This document shows positions 2 through 7,417 of a stretch of 50,657 nt of DNA, one piece after another. How positions within the stretch are numbered: position 1 is the stretch's first letter; every line of letters begins with the position of its first letter. The position numbers were made by a program, and so were the translations under genes. The notes under the pieces are model-generated. The model was not told the origin of the DNA. It was given only the letters and a program-made list of their open reading frames with translations, and searched no databases. This stretch comes from Prevotella sp. (GTDB lineage: Bacteria; Bacteroidota; Bacteroidia; Bacteroidales; Bacteroidaceae). The stretch covers positions 1 to 50,657 of the forward strand of contig JAFZAE010000277.1 in assembly GCA_017548385.1 (NCBI GenBank). The letters run 5' to 3'.

Positions 2-817
2 GCTTGTAGGGCTATCCTGAAGTCTGTTCCCAATAACAATTCACCATTGGCTATAGATAAACACAATATTTTTGAAGAGAATAGTGATGTTATCATCATG
101 GGGGCAAGTCAGGCAAAACACAATTTCGACCCTCGTATTTTAACCGACTCTTTGGGAATGAAAGCATACGTGGCAGGACAGGATGGTATTGATGTCATTC
201 AAAACTATATCTATCTGAAAGCCATATTTGACAGAAAACCACCCAAAGTGGTGATCTTAGAAGTTTTCTCAGCATATCTCGACGGTTCCATGAAATACCG
301 TATCTCTAATCTGAATATGTGGTATGGACTTTCAGAACCTGTCACCGAGTATTTCGACTCACAAGCCTCATGGCAGGAAAAGCTCAAACTAAAAAGCAAT
401 CTGTATATCTATAATGGGCTCCTTCAGCATTTGGTACGTATGAAAGTCAGAGCAGAGGATGCCATTGATGGATATGTACCCATGACTGGCCAATATAAAG
501 GGAGTTTCTTCACCAACAACAAATTTGAGACCGACGCAGAGGAACTAAAATACCTTGATATGATTGTTGATTTGTGTAAGAGTAAGCATACCAGGCTGTT
601 TATGGTGCGCTCTCCTATATTCCTTATCAATGATACCTATAACGCATGGCTTGCTGATTATTGTAAGAAAAACAACCTGCCTCTTTTAAATCACTCAGCG
701 GATAAAGAGATGACAGACCATCCGGAATTGTTTCGTGAAATGCTTCATCTCAACAAAAATGGTGCCGATAAATTCACAAGGATAATTGCCAGTGAACTTA
801 AAGCTATGCTAAAGTAA
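2..817 (+). CDS. SGNH/GDSL hydrolase-like protein, 5' end outside the window
   Basis: The reading frame is open from base 2 with no ATG before the conserved block, so the N-terminus lies upstream of the window; the first in-window start would be a TTG at 47. Visible signature: a hydrophobic strand followed by MGASQAKHNFDP, which matches the block-I pattern (GxSxxxxNFDP) of SGNH-like proteins often found beside polysaccharide genes in Bacteroidetes. Near the C-terminus, HLNKNGADKF resembles the block-V region with its catalytic His. The next gene, 44 bp downstream on the same strand, is an acyltransferase-3 membrane protein. That pairing suggests acetylation or deacetylation of a surface glycan. 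The family call is fairly firm; enzymatic activity and substrate are inference. Confidence 0.6.
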   Translation, partial: ACRAILKSVPNNNSPLAIDKHNIFEENSDVIIMGASQAKHNFDPRILTDSLGMKAYVAGQDGIDVIQNYIYLKAIFDRKPPKVVILEVFSAYLDGSMKYRISNLNMWYGLSEPVTEYFDSQASWQEKLKLKSNLYIYNGLLQHLVRMKVRAEDAIDGYVPMTGQYKGSFFTNNKFETDAEELKYLDMIVDLCKSKHTRLFMVRSPIFLINDTYNAWLADYCKKNNLPLLNHSADKEMTDHPELFREMLHLNKNGADKFTRIIASELKAMLK

Positions 818-861
818 TAATAATAATCACATTGTTTACAGTTTACTATTAGAATTTCAAA

Positions 862-1944
862 ATGAAAGAAAGAGATATACAACTCGACTGCTATCGGGCA
901 TTGATAATGATGTATATCATTTGTGTGGTACACATGGTACATTGGTTGGGTGTCGGGAAAGAGCCTGTGAAATCCATTGTCTATTTTTCTATGCCCATCA
1001 TGTTTTTTATTTCTGGTGCGGCTATTTCTGTAAGTAAAAGCAAGAAAACAATTCTGGCAACCGTTGTAAATAGGGCAAAACGAGCACTGGTTCCATTTTA
1101 TGTGTATGCTCTTTTCTCTTTGATTGTGCTGACTTATCTGACATTGGTGGCAGTAAATGATTGCAACATATTCAGTTATAATCTTAATGATGTCATTAGG
1201 GTGCTCGTGGCACATGATATCCCACAAATGACAAACAACATGCCTCAAGGTAATCCAATATATGGGAAAACCCTACCGCATTTGTGGTTTATTATCGTAT
1301 TTCTCATTCTTTCGGTAACAGTGCCCATACAGCAAAAAATCATTGAGAAATTTCATCTTTCCGACCACTGGTATTTTGCATTGTGTATTCTCGCCTTTGC
1401 TATCGTTCAGTTCTTACCACGAATCTTCAGTTTGCAAGAGGTGTTTGGTTACAATTTGTTCTTGGTGGCAGGGATGCTGTATTATAAGAAACTAAGTAAA
1501 GGCAAAATTGCTCTATGTGGGGGTGTGTCGCTTGTGGTTTTGGTTTTGTGTATGGTTGTCGGCGGCATGAATTTCTTCCCTATGGTAAAAAACCATTATC
1601 CCCCTAATACGCTCTATGTGGCTTATACAATGTTCATACTTTCGTTGCTTGCATTGTTTTTTTCTGTGGTTAAGGTGAAAAATACATGGTTGGTGGATTT
1701 CTGGAATAAGAAAGGTTATTCTTTGTATCTATATCAAAACTTCGCTTTTTTCATCGTGGCACCTCTGAAAACTTATATTGCCGCACATTGCCAGTCGGCC
1801 ATCATCACTGGTATCTTGTGTTTCCTTTTGCTTCTTGCTGTATCGACTATCCTTGTGATGATGATAACTCCTCTTGAGGAACCTTTGACCAATATGATTT
1901 ATAAGATTCCCTTTCTTAATATAGACAAACGAAGTAAGAATTGA
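862..1944 (+). CDS. Acyltransferase family 3 integral membrane protein
   Basis: 360 residues, about ten hydrophobic segments. The N-terminus has the family hallmark: a charged start, then DCYRALIMMYIICVVHMVHW, where the Arg and the membrane-embedded His match the conserved R and H of acyltransferase-3 (OafA/WecH-like) proteins. A second typical element is the strongly hydrophobic MPIMFFISGAAIS in TM2. These proteins transfer acetyl or other acyl groups to extracytoplasmic sugars. The start ATG at 862 directly precedes the hallmark, so the length is plausible. It probably forms a transcription unit with the SGNH-like gene upstream. The 3' end converges on a decayed VOC gene. The acceptor molecule cannot be told from sequence. 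Confidence 0.75.
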   Translation: MKERDIQLDCYRALIMMYIICVVHMVHWLGVGKEPVKSIVYFSMPIMFFISGAAISVSKSKKTILATVVNRAKRALVPFYVYALFSLIVLTYLTLVAVNDCNIFSYNLNDVIRVLVAHDIPQMTNNMPQGNPIYGKTLPHLWFIIVFLILSVTVPIQQKIIEKFHLSDHWYFALCILAFAIVQFLPRIFSLQEVFGYNLFLVAGMLYYKKLSKGKIALCGGVSLVVLVLCMVVGGMNFFPMVKNHYPPNTLYVAYTMFILSLLALFFSVVKVKNTWLVDFWNKKGYSLYLYQNFAFFIVAPLKTYIAAHCQSAIITGILCFLLLLAVSTILVMMITPLEEPLTNMIYKIPFLNIDKRSKN

Positions 1945-1950
1945 ATGAAA

Positions 1951-2330
1951 TGGATGGGATGGGAATGTGATTTTTCGTATTATCCTATTGTCGAAGGCAG
2001 GGGCTGCCATAGGCTTAAACAGTGGCGTCCAGTTTTGGAGATGAGATATTCATATTCTTGTTCAACATCATCCACTTCATAGCAGAGATGGTAGGGCGTA
2101 ACACCACGTTTGGCCAACATCTTTTGCCTGGTCTTTTTGCCATCGTATGGTTGCACTAATTCTATAGTTGTCTCCCCTTCTTTGTGCAGAAAGCATATAT
2201 GGGTCTGTTGGGTGTCGTCGGCAATAGTTGCTCCAGCTGAGTAGCCAAGCAATTCGAAGGCTTTAGCGGTGTTGTTAATATCGCCAGTCAAATAGCCTAA
2301 ATGATGAATATGGTATCTTTCTATTGGTAA
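1951..2330 (-). pseudogene. Broken VOC-family (glyoxalase/epimerase-like) gene
   Basis: On the minus strand, translation from the codon after a TGA at 2331-2333 gives a typical VOC first strand, IERYHIHHLGYLTGDI, then a sequence recognisable as half a methylmalonyl-CoA-epimerase-like fold ending EVDDVEQEYEYLIS. Three defects are visible. (1) There is no ATG or GTG before the first strand; the only usable start is a TTG at 2291 that would delete it. (2) After EYEYLIS the frame becomes nonsense and stops at about 1980, while another frame continues the expected protein as WTPLFKPMAAPAFDNR, so a one-base-type frameshift occurred near 2035-2045. (3) The resumed frame loses similarity after about 1965 and runs into the convergent acyltransferase gene, so the last strand is missing. 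I call it a degraded gene; a sequencing error could explain the frameshift alone but not the other two defects. Confidence 0.7.
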
Positions 2331-2340
2331 TCAGTAATAG

Positions 2341-2366
2341 TTGAGCAGGGCAATTACCCTGTTCAA
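2341..2366 (-). terminator. Hairpin after nadE
   Basis: A 10-bp inverted repeat with one G-U pair: TTGAGCAGGG / CCCTGTTCAA around a 6-nt loop. It lies 5 bp beyond the nadE stop codon. No T-run follows on the minus strand, so it may be a weak terminator or a 3' stabilising hairpin. It separates nadE from the decayed VOC gene. Confidence 0.45.
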
Positions 2367-2370
2367 ATTA

Positions 2371-3135
2371 TTATTCAATCGCTGGTTTTGTATAACTGAA
2401 ATATGGAATGGGCTTCAACTTGAAAAGATTTGCATAGTGCTTGCGGTCAATTAATTCTTTGATCTTTGTATCTTCACAAACACCAGTACGGATATAGTTA
2501 TCGAGGGTGGCATAGGTGAAACCTAAGTTGTCCTCATCGCTCTTTCCACATAGACCATCAGAAGGTGTCTTCATCACTAAATCTTTGGGTAAACCTAATT
2601 CCATTCCAATTTGTAAGACTTCATTCACGGTTAGCCCACCCAGAGGTGCAAAGTCGCCGGCTGCATCGCCATATCTGGTGGAGTAGCCAACCCAGTCTTC
2701 CGACAGGTTGCAGGTGTTGGCCACACGTCCGTTCATCGATTGAGAAACTGCATAGACTGATGTCATGCGCAAACGTGGCGGCATATTGATAGTGGTCTGT
2801 TCAGTTACTTCCACACCAAGTGTACTTAATTGCTCTTTTACTGTTGCCATAAGTGTTTGGTAAGTGTCACCGATATTTACGTTGCAGTAGCGAATTCCAA
2901 GATGGTTGATGAGTCGCATGCTATCAGAAATGTCTTTTTGTACGCCATTGGGCATGGTCACTCCGATTACGCGGTCTTTTCCCAATGCCTCCACACATAG
3001 TGCAGCAATAATACTACTGTCTTTCCCTCCAGATACACCTAAAACAGCATTGCATCCTGGACCGTTTACATCAAACCAATCTTTAATCCATTGTACGACT
3101 TGGTCTTTTACTTCTTTTGCATTGAAAGTTTCCAT
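2371..3135 (-). CDS. nadE: NH3-dependent NAD+ synthetase
   Basis: Catalyses the last step of NAD synthesis: ATP-dependent amidation of nicotinic acid adenine dinucleotide, in the cytoplasm. The protein is about 254 residues and has no N-terminal glutaminase (carbon-nitrogen hydrolase) domain, so it belongs to the short ammonia-using class. The PP-loop SGGKDS lies at residues 35-40. Later blocks NTCNLSEDWVGYSTRYGD and TPSDGLCGKSDEDNLGF are the NaAD/ATP-site motifs. The frame extends upstream to 3186, but the TAnnTTTG promoter at 3157-3164 sits inside that extension. The ATG at 3135 is therefore the real start. The gene is monocistronic with a hairpin after its stop. Confidence 0.95.
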   Translation of the reverse strand: METFNAKEVKDQVVQWIKDWFDVNGPGCNAVLGVSGGKDSSIIAALCVEALGKDRVIGVTMPNGVQKDISDSMRLINHLGIRYCNVNIGDTYQTLMATVKEQLSTLGVEVTEQTTINMPPRLRMTSVYAVSQSMNGRVANTCNLSEDWVGYSTRYGDAAGDFAPLGGLTVNEVLQIGMELGLPKDLVMKTPSDGLCGKSDEDNLGFTYATLDNYIRTGVCEDTKIKELIDRKHYANLFKLKPIPYFSYTKPAIE

Positions 3136-3156
3136 ATAGAAGATGAGTTTTCTTTG

Positions 3157-3164
3157 CAAAGGTA
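3157..3164 (-). promoter_or_regulatory. nadE promoter -7 element
   Basis: Minus-strand TACCTTTG fits the Bacteroidetes -7 consensus TAnnTTTG. A TTTTG about 19 bp upstream fits the -33 element. It lies about 22 bp before the nadE ATG and decides the start. Confidence 0.7.
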
Positions 3165-3342
3165 CGATTAAGTGAATGAAAAGCAAAACAAAAAGACGAA
3201 GTTTTTTGTTTTGCTTGTCCGAACTTAAGTACTTTCTACGCAGTTAATGTTATGCTTATTTTTGTAAACAACAAATAATATCTACCTTTCAACTGAACAA
3301 ATCGGGTTTGGTGATGGTGCTGTATGGATTATTGAAAACAAC

Positions 3343-3945
3343 CTATACATATTTTTGAATCCATGAAATAATTCCATCTATATGTGTGCAGATTATGCTT
3401 TCACGACCTTCAGATGAGAGTAAGAAGTGAAGATCTTCATGGTTATCCATGAAGAAGTTCTCGGTCAGCACAGCGGGGCAGAGGGTATGACGGAGGATAT
3501 AGAAACCAGCCTCACAGTCTATGTCTCCATCGGTATAGTCGGTGCGGATTTGGTGACCTGACAGGTGATGCCGGGCTGCCCAATACAGACTATCTGCCAA
3601 ACTGTCTGCCCTTGTTTGTCCTCGTGAGGTGTATACCGACCATCCCCTGGCTTTCATCCATTGCCCACACCCAGCTGCATTGACGTGGATGGAGATTAGA
3701 ATAACATTGTCGGCACCGTATTCTCGGCACAGTTTGTTTACACGCCAACAACGAACGGGTAGGGGAATGTCGTTTTGCTCGGTGACGATGCGACGGGCAT
3801 CATAGCCCATACCACAAAGGCGGTTGGTTACTTCAAGGGCGATTTCCCTTGCATATTGGTACTCTAGCAGTCGCCCGTCGGGACTGCGCTTTCCGACTGT
3901 ATTGCAGCCGTGTCCATTGTCGATAAGAATTAGCATGGTTTTCAT
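3343..3945 (-). CDS. N-acetylmuramoyl-L-alanine amidase (Amidase_3 family)
   Basis: Zinc amidase that cleaves the bond between MurNAc and L-Ala in peptidoglycan. The 200-residue protein is a bare catalytic domain. Zinc ligands are visible in order: His of IDNGHG, Glu in the RLLEYQYARE helix, and His of ISIHVNA. The catalytic Glu is in AVLTENFFMDN. The frame starts at 3966, but a TAnnTTTG element at 3968-3975 would place the transcript start almost on that codon, so I choose the ATG at 3945 (MKTMLILIDNGHG). Odd point: there is no signal peptide or membrane segment, so the export route is unclear; a lysin-like or intracellular recycling role is possible. No phage genes are adjacent. Confidence 0.85.
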   Translation of the reverse strand: MKTMLILIDNGHGCNTVGKRSPDGRLLEYQYAREIALEVTNRLCGMGYDARRIVTEQNDIPLPVRCWRVNKLCREYGADNVILISIHVNAAGCGQWMKARGWSVYTSRGQTRADSLADSLYWAARHHLSGHQIRTDYTDGDIDCEAGFYILRHTLCPAVLTENFFMDNHEDLHFLLSSEGRESIICTHIDGIISWIQKYV

Positions 3946-3967
3946 AACAAAAAAATGATTTACCATG

Positions 3968-3975
3968 CAAAAATA
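3968..3975 (-). promoter_or_regulatory. Amidase promoter -7 element
   Basis: Minus-strand TATTTTTG matches TAnnTTTG and lies about 23 bp before the chosen ATG at 3945. Confidence 0.6.
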
Positions 3976-4068
3976 GACAATGGTTACTTGATGTCTATGC
4001 CATTTCTGGAAATCAAAGGGTGGTCAGCCCCTACAGAGATTCCTGCATTCCTATTTTAATTGTTCCTT

Positions 4069-4076
4069 TATTTTTG
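4069..4076 (+). promoter_or_regulatory. Promoter -7 element of the lectin-like gene
   Basis: TATTTTTG matches TAnnTTTG. No clear -33 TTG is seen at the expected distance. It would give a leader of about 60 nt before the ATG at 4145. Confidence 0.5.
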
Positions 4077-4144
4077 CAGTTTTGTTTTTTTTCTGTAATT
4101 TAGCGGCGAAAAAGTGTTACCATGTATTTACAAACCTAAAGAAT

Positions 4145-4876
4145 ATGAAAAGACTTCTGCTTTTCTTCCTACTTGTGGCGTTTATGGCCCCTGATGCATC
4201 AGCCCAGGGTGTGATTATCCCGCCGACAACCAAACCCACCAAACCTACTAAGCCTACCAAACCTACCAAACCCACTAAGCCTACCACATCGTTGCCCAGC
4301 TACAAGACCTGCCCCGACGGCAACCATCCCCACCTGATTGACCTGGGTCTTCCCTCTGGCACGAAGTGGGCTTGCTGCAACGTTGATGCCTCGAAGCCCG
4401 AGGACTACGGCGGCTATTACGCCTGGGGCGAGACGACCATGAAGAGCGGTGAGTACTCTTGGAAGACCTACAAGCACTGCGACGGCACCGAAAATTCCTG
4501 CCACAACCTCGGCTCGAGTATCTGCGGCACGCAGTACGACGTTGCCCACGTGAAGTGGGGCGGCAACTGGCAGATGCCGACGGAAGACCAATTCAAGGAG
4601 CTGCTCCACAAATGCAACAAGGTTGTCTGGACGACTCAGAACGGCGTGGAGGGTCGGATGTTCACGGGTCCCAATGGTCGCAGCATCTTCCTGCCGGCAG
4701 CGGGCTACCGTGGCTCTTCCCTCGACAACGCCGGTAGTGACGGCGACTATTGGTCGGGTGCGCAGAGTACGTCGGACGCGCGCTGCGCGTATGAGCTCGA
4801 CTTCGATTCGGGCGGCGCGTACTGGTACGGCACCGGCCGGTACTGCGGGCAGAGCGTTCGCCCTGTGTCCAGATAA
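4145..4876 (+). CDS. Secreted C-type-lectin-like (Fib_succ_major) protein, candidate DGR target
   Basis: 243 residues. Layout: signal peptide (MKRLLLFFLLVAFMAPDASA), a Thr-Lys-Pro spacer (residues 29-46), then one domain of the Fibrobacter succinogenes major paralogous type. Landmarks are LIDLGLPSGTKWACCNV, YGGYYAWGETT, WGGNWQMPT, SIFLPAAGYRG and a final GQSVRPVSR. The start is the ATG at 4145, because only it begins the signal peptide. The DNA is much richer in G+C than its neighbours (40 of 60 bases in 4741-4800). The last 45 codons are poor in A, and most divergent-looking residues use NNC or NNT codons (Asp211, Arg213, Cys214, Tyr226, Tyr228, Gly229, Thr230, Gly231, Tyr233, Cys234). That pattern is expected if AAC codons of a template were mutated at A, as in diversity-generating retroelement target proteins. 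No reverse transcriptase or template is in this window. Binding partner unknown; the alternative is an ordinary member of a paralogous family. Confidence 0.8.
   Translation: MKRLLLFFLLVAFMAPDASAQGVIIPPTTKPTKPTKPTKPTKPTKPTTSLPSYKTCPDGNHPHLIDLGLPSGTKWACCNVDASKPEDYGGYYAWGETTMKSGEYSWKTYKHCDGTENSCHNLGSSICGTQYDVAHVKWGGNWQMPTEDQFKELLHKCNKVVWTTQNGVEGRMFTGPNGRSIFLPAAGYRGSSLDNAGSDGDYWSGAQSTSDARCAYELDFDSGGAYWYGTGRYCGQSVRPVSR
4229..4282 (+). repeat. Six 9-bp units encoding Thr-Lys-Pro
   Basis: Six tandem nonamers of the form ACC/ACT-AAA/AAG-CCC/CCT encode (TKP)6, a stiff extended spacer between signal peptide and lectin-like domain. Third-position differences show that the array is not brand new, but such arrays can change copy number by slippage. 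Confidence 0.9.
4735..4873 (+). other. Putative DGR-type variable region
   Basis: This is the 3' end of the lectin-like gene. My hand count gives 16 A in 120 bases for 4741-4860, against 18 A in 60 bases for 4441-4500 in the constant part. Invariant-looking codons (TGG, CGG, GGG, CAG) alternate with NNC/NNT codons. A back-projected template with AAC at the variable positions would encode N-W-N-N-N-N-R-N-N-G-Q-S-V-R-P. The pattern is seen in the sequence; the DGR origin is inference. Confidence 0.45.
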
Positions 4877-5041
4877 GTACATCCTTCCCCATCCCCCTCG
4901 CCCCGCCCCCCTTCCCCCTCGAGAAGCGTTCTTGGCTGGCATAGAAAACGCTAAAATTAAACAATATGTCAATAACGAAAGAAATACCACATTCCCCCAA
5001 TACTGGAATGTATATCATTTATTAATAGGGGCTTAAAAATC

Positions 5042-6022
5042 TTAATACTCTAAATACGGCTCGAGGCGGCGGATGGCCTCCGGCGAAAAGTCGGGTAGGA
5101 GGCGTAGGTCGGCGATGCTGTGAAGGGGACCTTTCAGCCGGCGGTATTCTACGATGGCCTTAGCTTGATAGAAATTGATATAGGGATGCTTGCGTAATTG
5201 TGCAAGGGTAAGTTTGTTGACATTCAGACGATGCTGAGGCTGCTGGGAAATTAAAAAGAAAGGCAGGGCTTCCTCTGGGAAACCCTCTATCTCAAGAAGT
5301 TGTTTTTCATCGTAGAAACCGCCGAGTTGCTCGCGATACCGCACGATGCTACGGGCATAGTATGAACCAATTCCTGGCACTTTCTTCAGTATCGTGGTAT
5401 CAGCAGTACTGAGGTCGATGTGTTCACCAGCTTTGAGCTTGATGGGATACATCAACGTGTCGCGAGGATGCTCCACGGAATTGCCACTATTGCCATAGTT
5501 GCCGCTCCCGGTATGCCAGTCATGTGAGCCTCTGTAATCATTGCCGCTGTGATTACCGCCATGTCGATACTCCCTCCTACCATAGACATCTGCTGCCGGA
5601 CGGTAGTCTTCGCCAATGCAGATATAAGGAGCCAAACGGCGATACTGTCCCACTGTGAGACCATAGACTCGGGCGAAATCCTCTGGTGTGCGATAAATGC
5701 CACCCTTTGCCCTGTATTTATAGATATTGCGCACCTGCCATGGTTGCAGACCGAGGGCAAGCAATTGTGTGCTGTCGGCTGTGTTGGGGTCAAACTCAAA
5801 CAATTCGCTCTCCTCCGTCTTTACAGCATAATAGTATTCTTCGGTATTTTGTTCGGAAACAGACGGTTTTGTTACTACGCTGTCGTTTTCAGAGAGAGAA
5901 GCGCTTTGGCGGTTTCCTCCTAAAAAGAATATCAGACAAAAGGCCAAAACGGCCACGGCAAGTGCCACAAGCAGCACCTGACGGTCGGATTTCTGGAAGT
6001 AGAAAAACTCGCGAAAATTCAT
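5042..6022 (-). CDS. ComEA-like helix-hairpin-helix protein, membrane anchored
   Basis: 326 residues. One N-terminal transmembrane segment (VLLVALAVAVLAFCLIFFLG, residues about 17-36) is followed by helix-hairpin-helix modules of the ComEA/T2SS-K type: one at FDPNTADSTQLLALGLQ, one at IDLSTADTTILKKVPGIGSYYARSIVRYRE, and a third at LNVNKLTLAQLRKHPYI. A Gly/Asn/His-rich linker (residues about 150-185) separates the first two. Such modules usually bind DNA non-specifically; in competent bacteria ComEA receives DNA in the periplasm. Whether this protein serves DNA uptake is inference. The ATG at 6022 directly precedes MNFREFFYF; an in-frame TTG at 6031 is less likely. It lies 36 bp after the NSS transporter stop, so cotranscription is possible. 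Confidence 0.75.
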   Translation of the reverse strand: MNFREFFYFQKSDRQVLLVALAVAVLAFCLIFFLGGNRQSASLSENDSVVTKPSVSEQNTEEYYYAVKTEESELFEFDPNTADSTQLLALGLQPWQVRNIYKYRAKGGIYRTPEDFARVYGLTVGQYRRLAPYICIGEDYRPAADVYGRREYRHGGNHSGNDYRGSHDWHTGSGNYGNSGNSVEHPRDTLMYPIKLKAGEHIDLSTADTTILKKVPGIGSYYARSIVRYREQLGGFYDEKQLLEIEGFPEEALPFFLISQQPQHRLNVNKLTLAQLRKHPYINFYQAKAIVEYRRLKGPLHSIADLRLLPDFSPEAIRRLEPYLEY

Positions 6023-6058
6023 GCTTCTCAATTATTTAACAAAGTCAATTTGTAACAG

Positions 6059-7417
6059 TTATATAATACCGAATTGGTGCATGAAAATAGAGATGATGCA
6101 GAGTGGACAAATAAATCGCACAACGAAGAGAAACACTTTCAGCCGCCATGATGACAAAGTCCCCCAATTGGTTACTTGATCACTCACCACCTGACGGGGG
6201 ATATACCATCCTACAAAAAGACAGGTAAGCAATGCTCCCAATGGAAGCATAATCTGAGCAGTAAGGGAATCACAGAAGTCGAGCAGATTCATTCCCAATA
6301 GTTTAACTTGACTGAGCGACCCCATGGAGAGAGAGCAGAAGACACCAATGATACAACAGATTGCCGTGACAATGATTGCTCCTTTGCCTCTTGATACCTT
6401 CAATTCCTCATGAAAGAATGCCGTGCCAATCTCATGCATAGAGATGGTGGAGGTGAGCGCTGCCAAGGCAAGAAGGAAATAGAACAGCACAGAGACCACA
6501 TAGCCTACAACAGGTGCGGAAGAGAATGCTGCGCCAAAGACACTGGGCAGCGTGATGAAAATCAGTGAAGGGCCGCTATCGGGGTTCACACCCACGGAAA
6601 ATGCAGCAGGGAAAATCATCAGACCAGCCAAGATGGCTACGATGGTATCGAGCATGGCTATCTGGAACGCTGAGTTGGAGAGATTGGTGTTTCTGCCGAA
6701 ATACGAGGCGTATGTGCAAAGGCATGCTGTTCCAAGACTCAGGGAAAAAAATGCCTGACCCAATGCCTCAAGAAGCACACTCGGTGACAATTGTGAAAAG
6801 TCGGGTTTTAGGAGGAATTCCACACCCCTTATGGCTCCCGGTAGCATACAGGATGCAACGATAAGCAGTATCAACAGCACCAACAGCATAGGCATTAATA
6901 GCTTAGAGGCTTTTTCTATGCCATTTCGCACCCCTCTTACTACCACTAAATGGGTGATGATGATAAAGCCAATAGTCCAGAGAATGGGCACCCAGGTGCC
7001 AGATGAATAATCCTTGAAATAGTTAGCCACAAGGGTCGCATCCGTTTCCAAACCACCCGTGAGCGATACAATGAGATACTGCATACACCAGCCGGCTACC
7101 ACCGCATAGAAACCTAGTATAATCATCGAGGTAAAGACCCCCAAATAGCCTATTACCCGCCAGGGTGTGCGACCAGCCAATTTGTTGTATGCACGTGCAG
7201 CATTGGTTTGAGCAGACCTGCCCACCACAAATTCTGCCACCATCCCGGGGATACCGAGTAGAAACACGAAAAGAATATAAAGCAGAATAAATGCTGCTCC
7301 ACCATTCTGCCCAGTCATATAGGGGAAACGCCAGATGTTGCCAAGTCCTACAGCTGAACCTGCCGTGGCAAGCACAATACCCAGTCGGCTACCAAAATTC
7401 GCTCTTTTGTGTTGCAT
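6059..7417 (-). CDS. Sodium-dependent NSS-family transporter (copy 1)
   Basis: 452 residues, 11-12 predicted membrane segments. The N-terminus carries the family signature in TM1, GSAVGLGNIWRFPY, which holds sodium- and substrate-site residues in LeuT-like transporters, followed by NGGAAFILLY. These inner-membrane symporters import amino acids or related compounds with Na+. The length fits the short bacterial type. It lies 31 bp downstream of a close paralogue on the same strand, so the two probably form one transcript and arose by tandem duplication. Substrate cannot be read from the sequence. Confidence 0.9.
   Translation of the reverse strand: MQHKRANFGSRLGIVLATAGSAVGLGNIWRFPYMTGQNGGAAFILLYILFVFLLGIPGMVAEFVVGRSAQTNAARAYNKLAGRTPWRVIGYLGVFTSMIILGFYAVVAGWCMQYLIVSLTGGLETDATLVANYFKDYSSGTWVPILWTIGFIIITHLVVVRGVRNGIEKASKLLMPMLLVLLILLIVASCMLPGAIRGVEFLLKPDFSQLSPSVLLEALGQAFFSLSLGTACLCTYASYFGRNTNLSNSAFQIAMLDTIVAILAGLMIFPAAFSVGVNPDSGPSLIFITLPSVFGAAFSSAPVVGYVVSVLFYFLLALAALTSTISMHEIGTAFFHEELKVSRGKGAIIVTAICCIIGVFCSLSMGSLSQVKLLGMNLLDFCDSLTAQIMLPLGALLTCLFVGWYIPRQVVSDQVTNWGTLSSWRLKVFLFVVRFICPLCIISIFMHQFGII

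Follow-up and report, generated by a model that had tools for sequence, protein, structure and literature searches.

Is the gene at 4145–4876 of this stretch of Prevotella DNA still being rewritten by a diversifying element elsewhere in the genome, or does it carry the imprint of rewriting that has ended? The whole stretch of 50,657 nucleotides analysed here is called the window, and all positions without a locus label refer to it. The original prediction held that the C-terminus of the encoded protein is the variable region (VR) of a diversity-generating retroelement (DGR) whose template and reverse transcriptase (RT) lie at a distance, and that the bacterium thereby diversifies a secreted binding protein.

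The protein consists of a signal-peptide-like N-terminus (named by inspection), a K-P-T repeat linker and a lectin-like domain. It matches the Pfam profile Lcl_C (DUF1566; E = 9.2e-5, 23.1 bits) and the NCBIfam profile TIGR02145 (FISUMP; E = 2.4e-4, 21.8 bits). Because both scores fall short of the curated cut-offs, 34.9 and 41.65, respectively, we describe the protein as FISUMP/Lcl_C family-like and do not call it a member. A profile of its own family matched none of the solved chains at E ≤ 0.1. The best homologues come mostly from MAGs titled Prevotella or Prevotellaceae, many of them with rumen or other ruminant-gut names.

On recount, the adenine numbers given in the original prediction proved exact, with 16 adenines in 120 bases at 4741–4860 against 18 in 60 bases at 4441–4500. 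Among 661 overlapping 120-base tiles taken from the 34 other open reading frames of the window (mean 35.2 adenines), two have 16 or fewer. Within the protein family, low adenine is by itself only moderately special, as 130 of the 144 measured members have less adenine at the C-terminus than upstream and eight have 16 or fewer per 120 bases. The codon identity of the variation is the stronger DGR signal, and with it the central claim holds: the C-terminus is DGR-type variable-region sequence, differing from related templates in an adenine-directed manner. The protein does end in GQSVRP, followed by two to three further residues, and the region, placed by the prediction at 4735–4876, is real, although the stretch that aligns with templates reaches further 5′ (Table 1).

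Table 1. Features of the gene and of the DNA behind it, in window coordinates.
Feature	Position	Strand	Basis
Gene for a secreted FISUMP/Lcl_C-like protein, 243 aa	4145..4876	+	Translation and profile matches
Variable-repeat-like region	4688..4872	+	Full-length blastn alignment to related DGR templates
19 variable codons, AAC/AAT in the L183 template (protein columns 194–234)	4724..4846	+	Codon alignment
Post-stop motif GTACATCCTTCCC	4877..4889	+	Counterpart of GTGCATCCTT after the target gene and after the template in two complete cassettes
Accessory-gene start remnant, ATG and six codons (MSITKEI, ATGTCAATAACGAAAGAAATA)	4966..4986	+	Weight matrix; frame closes after 19 codons

Adenine-directed differences from related templates

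Templates were sought in 398 genomes of the genus with the pattern AAYAAYAAYAAYCGNAAYAAYGG, allowing up to two mismatches. The pattern matched in 110 genomes, and a reversed control pattern also matched often. Clear FISUMP-type templates are present in six of the 18 regions that were fetched (L265, L266, L267, L269, L271 and L274), and a seventh region, L277, is template-like with an RT downstream. All differences between template and gene fall on template adenines in L267 (20/20), L271 (21/21) and L274 (20/20); the share is 76% in L265, 68% in L266 and 88% in L269.

Complete cassettes containing a gene of the same subfamily as the window gene were found in isolates Tb.RUG.168 (locus L183) and RGIG2694 (locus L125). 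Both are arranged in the order target gene, post-stop motif, stem-loop, accessory open reading frame, template (TR) and RT, and the RT carries the motifs IGNLTSQ and YVDDF. The TR of L183 differs from the end of its adjacent gene at 30 of 45 adenines and at none of 102 other bases, and that of L125 at 29 of 46 adenines and one of 101 other bases. In these two MAGs, both with a complete TR, the adjacent gene alone agrees with the TR at non-adenine bases: per approximately 100 such sites, the other FISUMP domains of the same MAG among our loci differ from the TR at 15–60 in the L183 MAG (22 domains) and at 9–36 in the L125 MAG (four domains). In the genome of L269, G177, pieces of TR and RT lie at contig ends, which indicates that such loci break assemblies.

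The accessory proteins of the two cassettes, encoded between target gene and TR (L183 4295–4846, L125 2830–3378), belong to a family of approximately 180–215 amino acids with 19 invariant columns in an alignment of eight sequences. Pfam gave nothing better than 0.075 for this family, and NCBIfam gave no match; against PHROG, one of two members gave a single match (0.0094). The DGR of Bacteroides phage p00, which we take to be Hankyphage, and similar DGRs of the genus resemble the FISUMP DGRs in their adenine-directed TR/VR differences and in an RT with the SQ motif. However, TR/VR pairs were found in 15 of 20 such loci (the other five gave no pair) and none is of FISUMP type on reading the sequences, so these elements were rejected as a source.

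Aligned by blastn over the full variable-repeat-like region, the window gene differs from the L269 template at 30 of 52 adenines and 24 of 133 other bases, and from the L183 template at 29 of 50 adenines and 27 of 135 other bases. In the comparison with the L183 TR, 26 of 45 adenines differ versus 21 of 102 other bases (Fisher p = 1.3e-5), part of the latter being divergence between species, as the templates come from other species. The constant part, with the L183 gene as reference, has no such bias (39/97 adenines versus 90/275 other bases, p = 0.11). By TR base, the fraction that differs is 0.58 for A, 0.26 for C, 0.10 for G and 0.20 for T; adenines stand out less in the comparison with the L125 TR, which is more distant (A 30/46, C 13/45, G 8/34, T 11/22). 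The third base is changed relative to the L183 TR in two of 19 Asn codons versus 13 of 30 other codons. At the 19 positions where the template has AAC or AAT, 18 window codons end in C or T, and 17 of the 19 have the template's own third base.

The same 19 codons had already been singled out. In a codon table of 147 distinct homologues with a C-terminus, 19 columns had been chosen by eye, before any template was known, for high variability, richness in Y, N, D, G, S and F, and an NNC/NNT pattern. The third base is C or T in 84% of codons in these columns versus 61% elsewhere, an excess that is partly built in because the NNC/NNT pattern guided the choice. Within single amino acids, the fraction ending in C or T is 0.92 versus 0.64 for Leu, 0.73 versus 0.45 for Val and 0.69 versus 0.45 for Thr, and Pro lacks the excess (0.57 versus 0.59). 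The L183 TR has 21 Asn codons, two of which lie before column 193 and were left out of the comparison; the 19 from column 193 on are identical with the 19 columns chosen by eye. All 19 alignable Asn codons stand on hypervariable columns, none of which has an entropy of 3 bits or less. Selected by entropy alone, 24 columns between 193 and 241 exceed 3 bits, namely these 19 and five that are not Asn in the L183 TR (196, 209, 212, 225 and 236).

Among eight other FISUMP domains of the genome to which the window belongs, compared with the L183 TR, five show adenine bias at p values of 0.0007 to 0.031 and one at 0.051; two domains on contig C195 show none (p = 0.22 and 0.96). Between the window gene and its nearest paralogues in this genome, non-adenine divergence in the variable region is close to divergence in the constant part (0.26 versus 0.23, and 0.32 versus 0.27), and across 36 own-genome pairs the ranges are 0.22–0.60 versus 0.23–0.47. 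No shared template has therefore overwritten these genes recently.

Motif, stem-loop and accessory start behind the stop codon

In the complete cassettes, the stop codon is followed by GTGCATCC(T)TT, a long GC-rich stem-loop and the accessory gene. The element GTGCATCC was seen again shortly 3′ of the TR, past the TR/VR homology (L183 5246–5253, L125 3784–3791). The window gene has a counterpart of this motif directly behind its stop codon (Table 1), for which approximately 0.4 chance matches are expected in the window at up to one mismatch. Across the family, GTRCATCC occurs within 45 nt past the stop codon in 35 of 102 members and at 150–195 nt in none of the 102.

The window DNA between the stop codon and the accessory-like start forms a small hairpin only. 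Folded as DNA, 4877–4965 reaches −5.9 kcal/mol (z −0.9), in contrast to the stem-loops of L125, L134 and L183 at −38.7, −43.1 and −42.2 kcal/mol (z −6.5, −8.0 and −5.2); the downstream stretch of L158, a decayed cassette, has a z of 0.4. These z values were obtained for six stretches with DNA parameters and dinucleotide shuffles, after an earlier pass with RNA parameters and mononucleotide shuffles. Excerpts of two studies of phage BPP-1 describe a downstream stem-loop element required for efficient homing (PMC3240598) and residual homing activity in its absence (PMC12875486). A paralogue on contig C231 of the same genome (L013, G000:C231, 2207–2390) has the GTGCATCCTT motif and a stem-loop with z −3.1 but lacks an accessory remnant, and decay may have gone less far in this target than in the window gene.

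Beginning 89 nt past the stop codon (88 nt in L158), the window contains an accessory-like start, which resembles the accessory starts MSLTKEV, MSLTKEI and MSSIKEI of other loci and is only seven codons long. The site was first spotted by eye, and search patterns for it were composed afterwards. A weight matrix was then derived from six accessory starts at loci other than the window, omitting L183 (a codon deletion, score 3.1) and L274 (a diverged start, score 6.4); it places the site at the top of all window positions on both strands, with 20.3 versus 14.5 for the runner-up.

Machinery in the genome and history of the locus

DGR RTs carry the motif [ILV]GxxxSQ. The assembly of the window's genome, a draft of 3.11 Mb in 277 contigs that is 81.7% complete, has two RVT_1 (PF00078) matches, neither with this motif. 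One carries QGG...SP, a motif of group II introns, and the other matches PADLOC RT_UG26 at 2.6e-159; with the SQ motif absent from both, they were rejected as the diversifying enzyme. A gene that encodes two FISUMP domains (2248–3624, minus strand) lies approximately 8 kb from this UG26-type RT (L011, G000:C32, 11909–13135), with no link shown between the two.

The genome contains no RT of the L183/L125 type at E ≤ 1e-30 in a profile search (in which four of 11 first-look candidates were scored), no second copy of the region's 3′ end detectable with a 20-mer at up to three mismatches, no adenine-rich near-copy detectable with DNA queries of 737 and 191 bases, and no full accessory gene at E ≤ 0.01. 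A match of the 191-base query on contig C115 lies within another open frame and was judged to be chance. A related TR used as query found nothing at E ≤ 0.001, with the window's own region likewise falling under the threshold. With the assembly 82% complete, the failure to find an RT and a TR falls short of proof. The RT and adenine-rich near-copy that the original prediction called for exist in related Prevotella genomes, and in the window's own genome none was found. Its further claim, that a remote template and RT now diversify the gene, is not borne out, since neither turned up in the assembly and the downstream DNA resembles a decayed cassette.

The window gene is flanked by an amidase-like gene (3343–3966) and a helix-hairpin-helix-like gene (5042–6031), both named by inspection. 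In genome G237, whose flanks are 79–82% identical, the left and right flank matches lie 53 bases apart and the alignment shows no intervening gene. G377 also has both neighbours, and the 4.2 kb fetched from it contain no match to FISUMP, accessory gene or RT. Gain of the gene in its own lineage is a simpler reading than loss in both G237 and G377.

Taken together, we consider it likely that the window gene is an orphaned, or retired, DGR target that is no longer diversified. A Prevotella DGR cassette, or a target gene with its tail, would have been gained between the two neighbouring genes. At the 3′ end of the target, the DGR would have altered those codons that are templated by adenine, and one variant would have been retained, with the stem-loop, TR and RT subsequently lost, along with the accessory gene beyond its first seven codons. 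The protein would now be a secreted lectin-like binder with a fixed variable surface, inherited as any gene. We favour a retired over a remotely served target because of the post-stop motif, the accessory remnant, the missing strong stem-loop and the decay of cassettes across the family; because in two MAGs the TR agrees at non-adenine bases with the adjacent gene only; and because the paralogues in the same genome diverge at non-adenine bases about as much as in the constant part.

A variant of this explanation, rather doubtful when taken separately and overlapping with it in probability, is that an already retired target with a short tail arrived by duplication or transfer, and that a full cassette never stood here. 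The absence of the gene from two syntenic relatives would fit such an arrival, as would the 13 matches to the window protein in its own genome. However, no paralogue with a matching accessory remnant is present in the fetched own-genome loci, and the nearest paralogue is 69% identical at the protein level.

It is unlikely that a working DGR, with TR and RT in the unassembled part of the genome or on an unbinned plasmid or phage, rewrites the variable-repeat-like region in trans. The VR-type pattern of the gene is genuine, approximately 18% of the genome may be missing, the broken contigs of G177 illustrate how such loci escape assembly, DGRs with multiple VRs are described in excerpts of a published study (PMC6642488), and homing could persist without the stem-loop, given the residual activity reported for BPP-1 (PMC12875486). 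On the other hand, the gene is followed by a weak stem-loop or none and by an accessory remnant instead, non-adjacent FISUMP domains in the two MAGs with a complete TR differ from it at many non-adenine sites, and RTs matching the DGR profile at E ≤ 1e-30 occur in only 27 of 398 genus genomes, some perhaps from other DGR lineages.

A history without any DGR, in which ordinary diversifying selection acted rapidly on a binding surface and yielded NNC/NNT-rich codons, is already disfavoured and highly improbable. In its favour, homologues of the window protein (152 of 200 genus genomes, E ≤ 0.001) are far commoner than such RTs, RVT_1 is absent from eight of 21 genomes picked mostly for many homologues (including G127, 99% complete), and the TR has no Asn at five high-entropy columns. 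Against it, all 19 alignable template Asn codons fall on hypervariable columns, the differences are adenine-directed with no such bias in the constant part, and post-stop motifs and accessory remnants adjoin family members, the window gene included.

Cassette decay and variable sites across the family

Incomplete cassettes also accompany other members of the family. Among the 80 nearest loci, cut at 5 kb flanks or at contig ends, an RT is present in three and an accessory match in nine, six of which have accessory fragments only (one of them, L140, weak). Further accessory fragments adjoin FISUMP domains in G177, G178, G043, G116 and G237.

No orthologue of the window gene was found, and the persistence of variable residues was compared in other family members. 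In 12 cross-genome pairs with a constant divergence of at most 0.118, adenine-templated sites differ by 6.1%; in the constant part of the same set, the figures are 14.0% for third codon positions and 3.7% for first and second positions. The 12 were pooled from 15 pairs, leaving out a tandem pair within L121 as well as L285/L286 and L285/L157, which repeat one gene. The pairs lack independence, certain genes occurring in more than one of them, and through bin contamination a single contig could have entered two MAGs. One pair differs at 12 of 45 variable sites and the remaining pairs at 0 to 5, and variable residues have changed little in most of these 12 selected pairs. Farther cross-genome pairs (L186/L187, constant divergence 0.16) differ at 14 and 17 of 45 variable sites. 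In seven within-genome pairs, our choice from 40, adenine-templated sites differ by 63% at a constant divergence of 14.6%; contrary to this trend, the tandem pair of L019 differs at two of 43 variable sites. L285 (G237:C12) and L286 (G063:C19) carry a FISUMP gene whose compared constant part is identical in genomes assigned to different species, through either recent transfer or bin contamination.

Tentatively, and with less than even probability, the DGRs of rumen Prevotella may act as a factory for fixed genes, in which a single live target undergoes rewriting, whereas products of earlier rounds leave the cassette, spread over the chromosome and are kept by purifying selection as a heritable set of binding proteins, the window gene among them.

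According to excerpts of two studies, DUF1566 (Lcl_C) and Fib_succ_major domains are known DGR targets (PMC4159848, PMC6642488). As far as the excerpt shows, the human-microbiome DGRs with such targets share with the window gene the domain families, a 3′ VR, changes at template adenines and a predicted lectin-like C-terminus; they were found through TR/VR pairs, whereas the window target stands alone with an apparent cassette remnant (PMC4159848). The L183 and L125 cassettes resemble the window in protein subfamily, variable columns and post-stop motif and have a similar accessory start, but they retain the stem-loop, full accessory gene, TR and RT, none of which the window gene has in full. 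The DGR prototype of BPP-1, as described in excerpts, is similar in its 3′ VR, mutated template adenines and stem-loop downstream of the VR, and differs in being phage-borne and active and in its accessory protein, Avd (PMC3240598, PMC12875486). In a survey of more than 30,000 DGRs, the available excerpt describes clustering by RT, with targets assigned per RT (PMC8144416).

DGRs that act on FISUMP/Lcl_C-like domains have thus been published already, and for orphaned, frozen targets no description was found among the papers listed by the literature searches, which left most subscription journals outside their scope. Searches that combined diversity-generating retroelement with FISUMP by name, or also with Prevotella and Fibrobacter succinogenes, returned no literature. 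Work on DGRs usually concerns elements in which RT, template and target are found side by side. Should orphaning followed by retention of the targets prove common, RT-based catalogues would overlook much of what DGRs produce, and hypermutation would be a route to new stable genes in addition to fast switching. The post-stop motif, the accessory start and the Asn-column pattern provide sequence marks by which retired targets could be counted.

Phage records yielded one weak DNA match and weak FISUMP homologues, and pattern scans of viral contigs gave 0 and 2 stretches. Lak phages of Prevotella (MK250015–MK250019 and MK250029) have tblastn matches to residues 60–213 of the window protein at 32.7% identity. 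Locus L121 contains an open frame of 2132 codons (3–6398) with at least five tandem FISUMP domains, and the variable sites are strongly different between several of the repeats.
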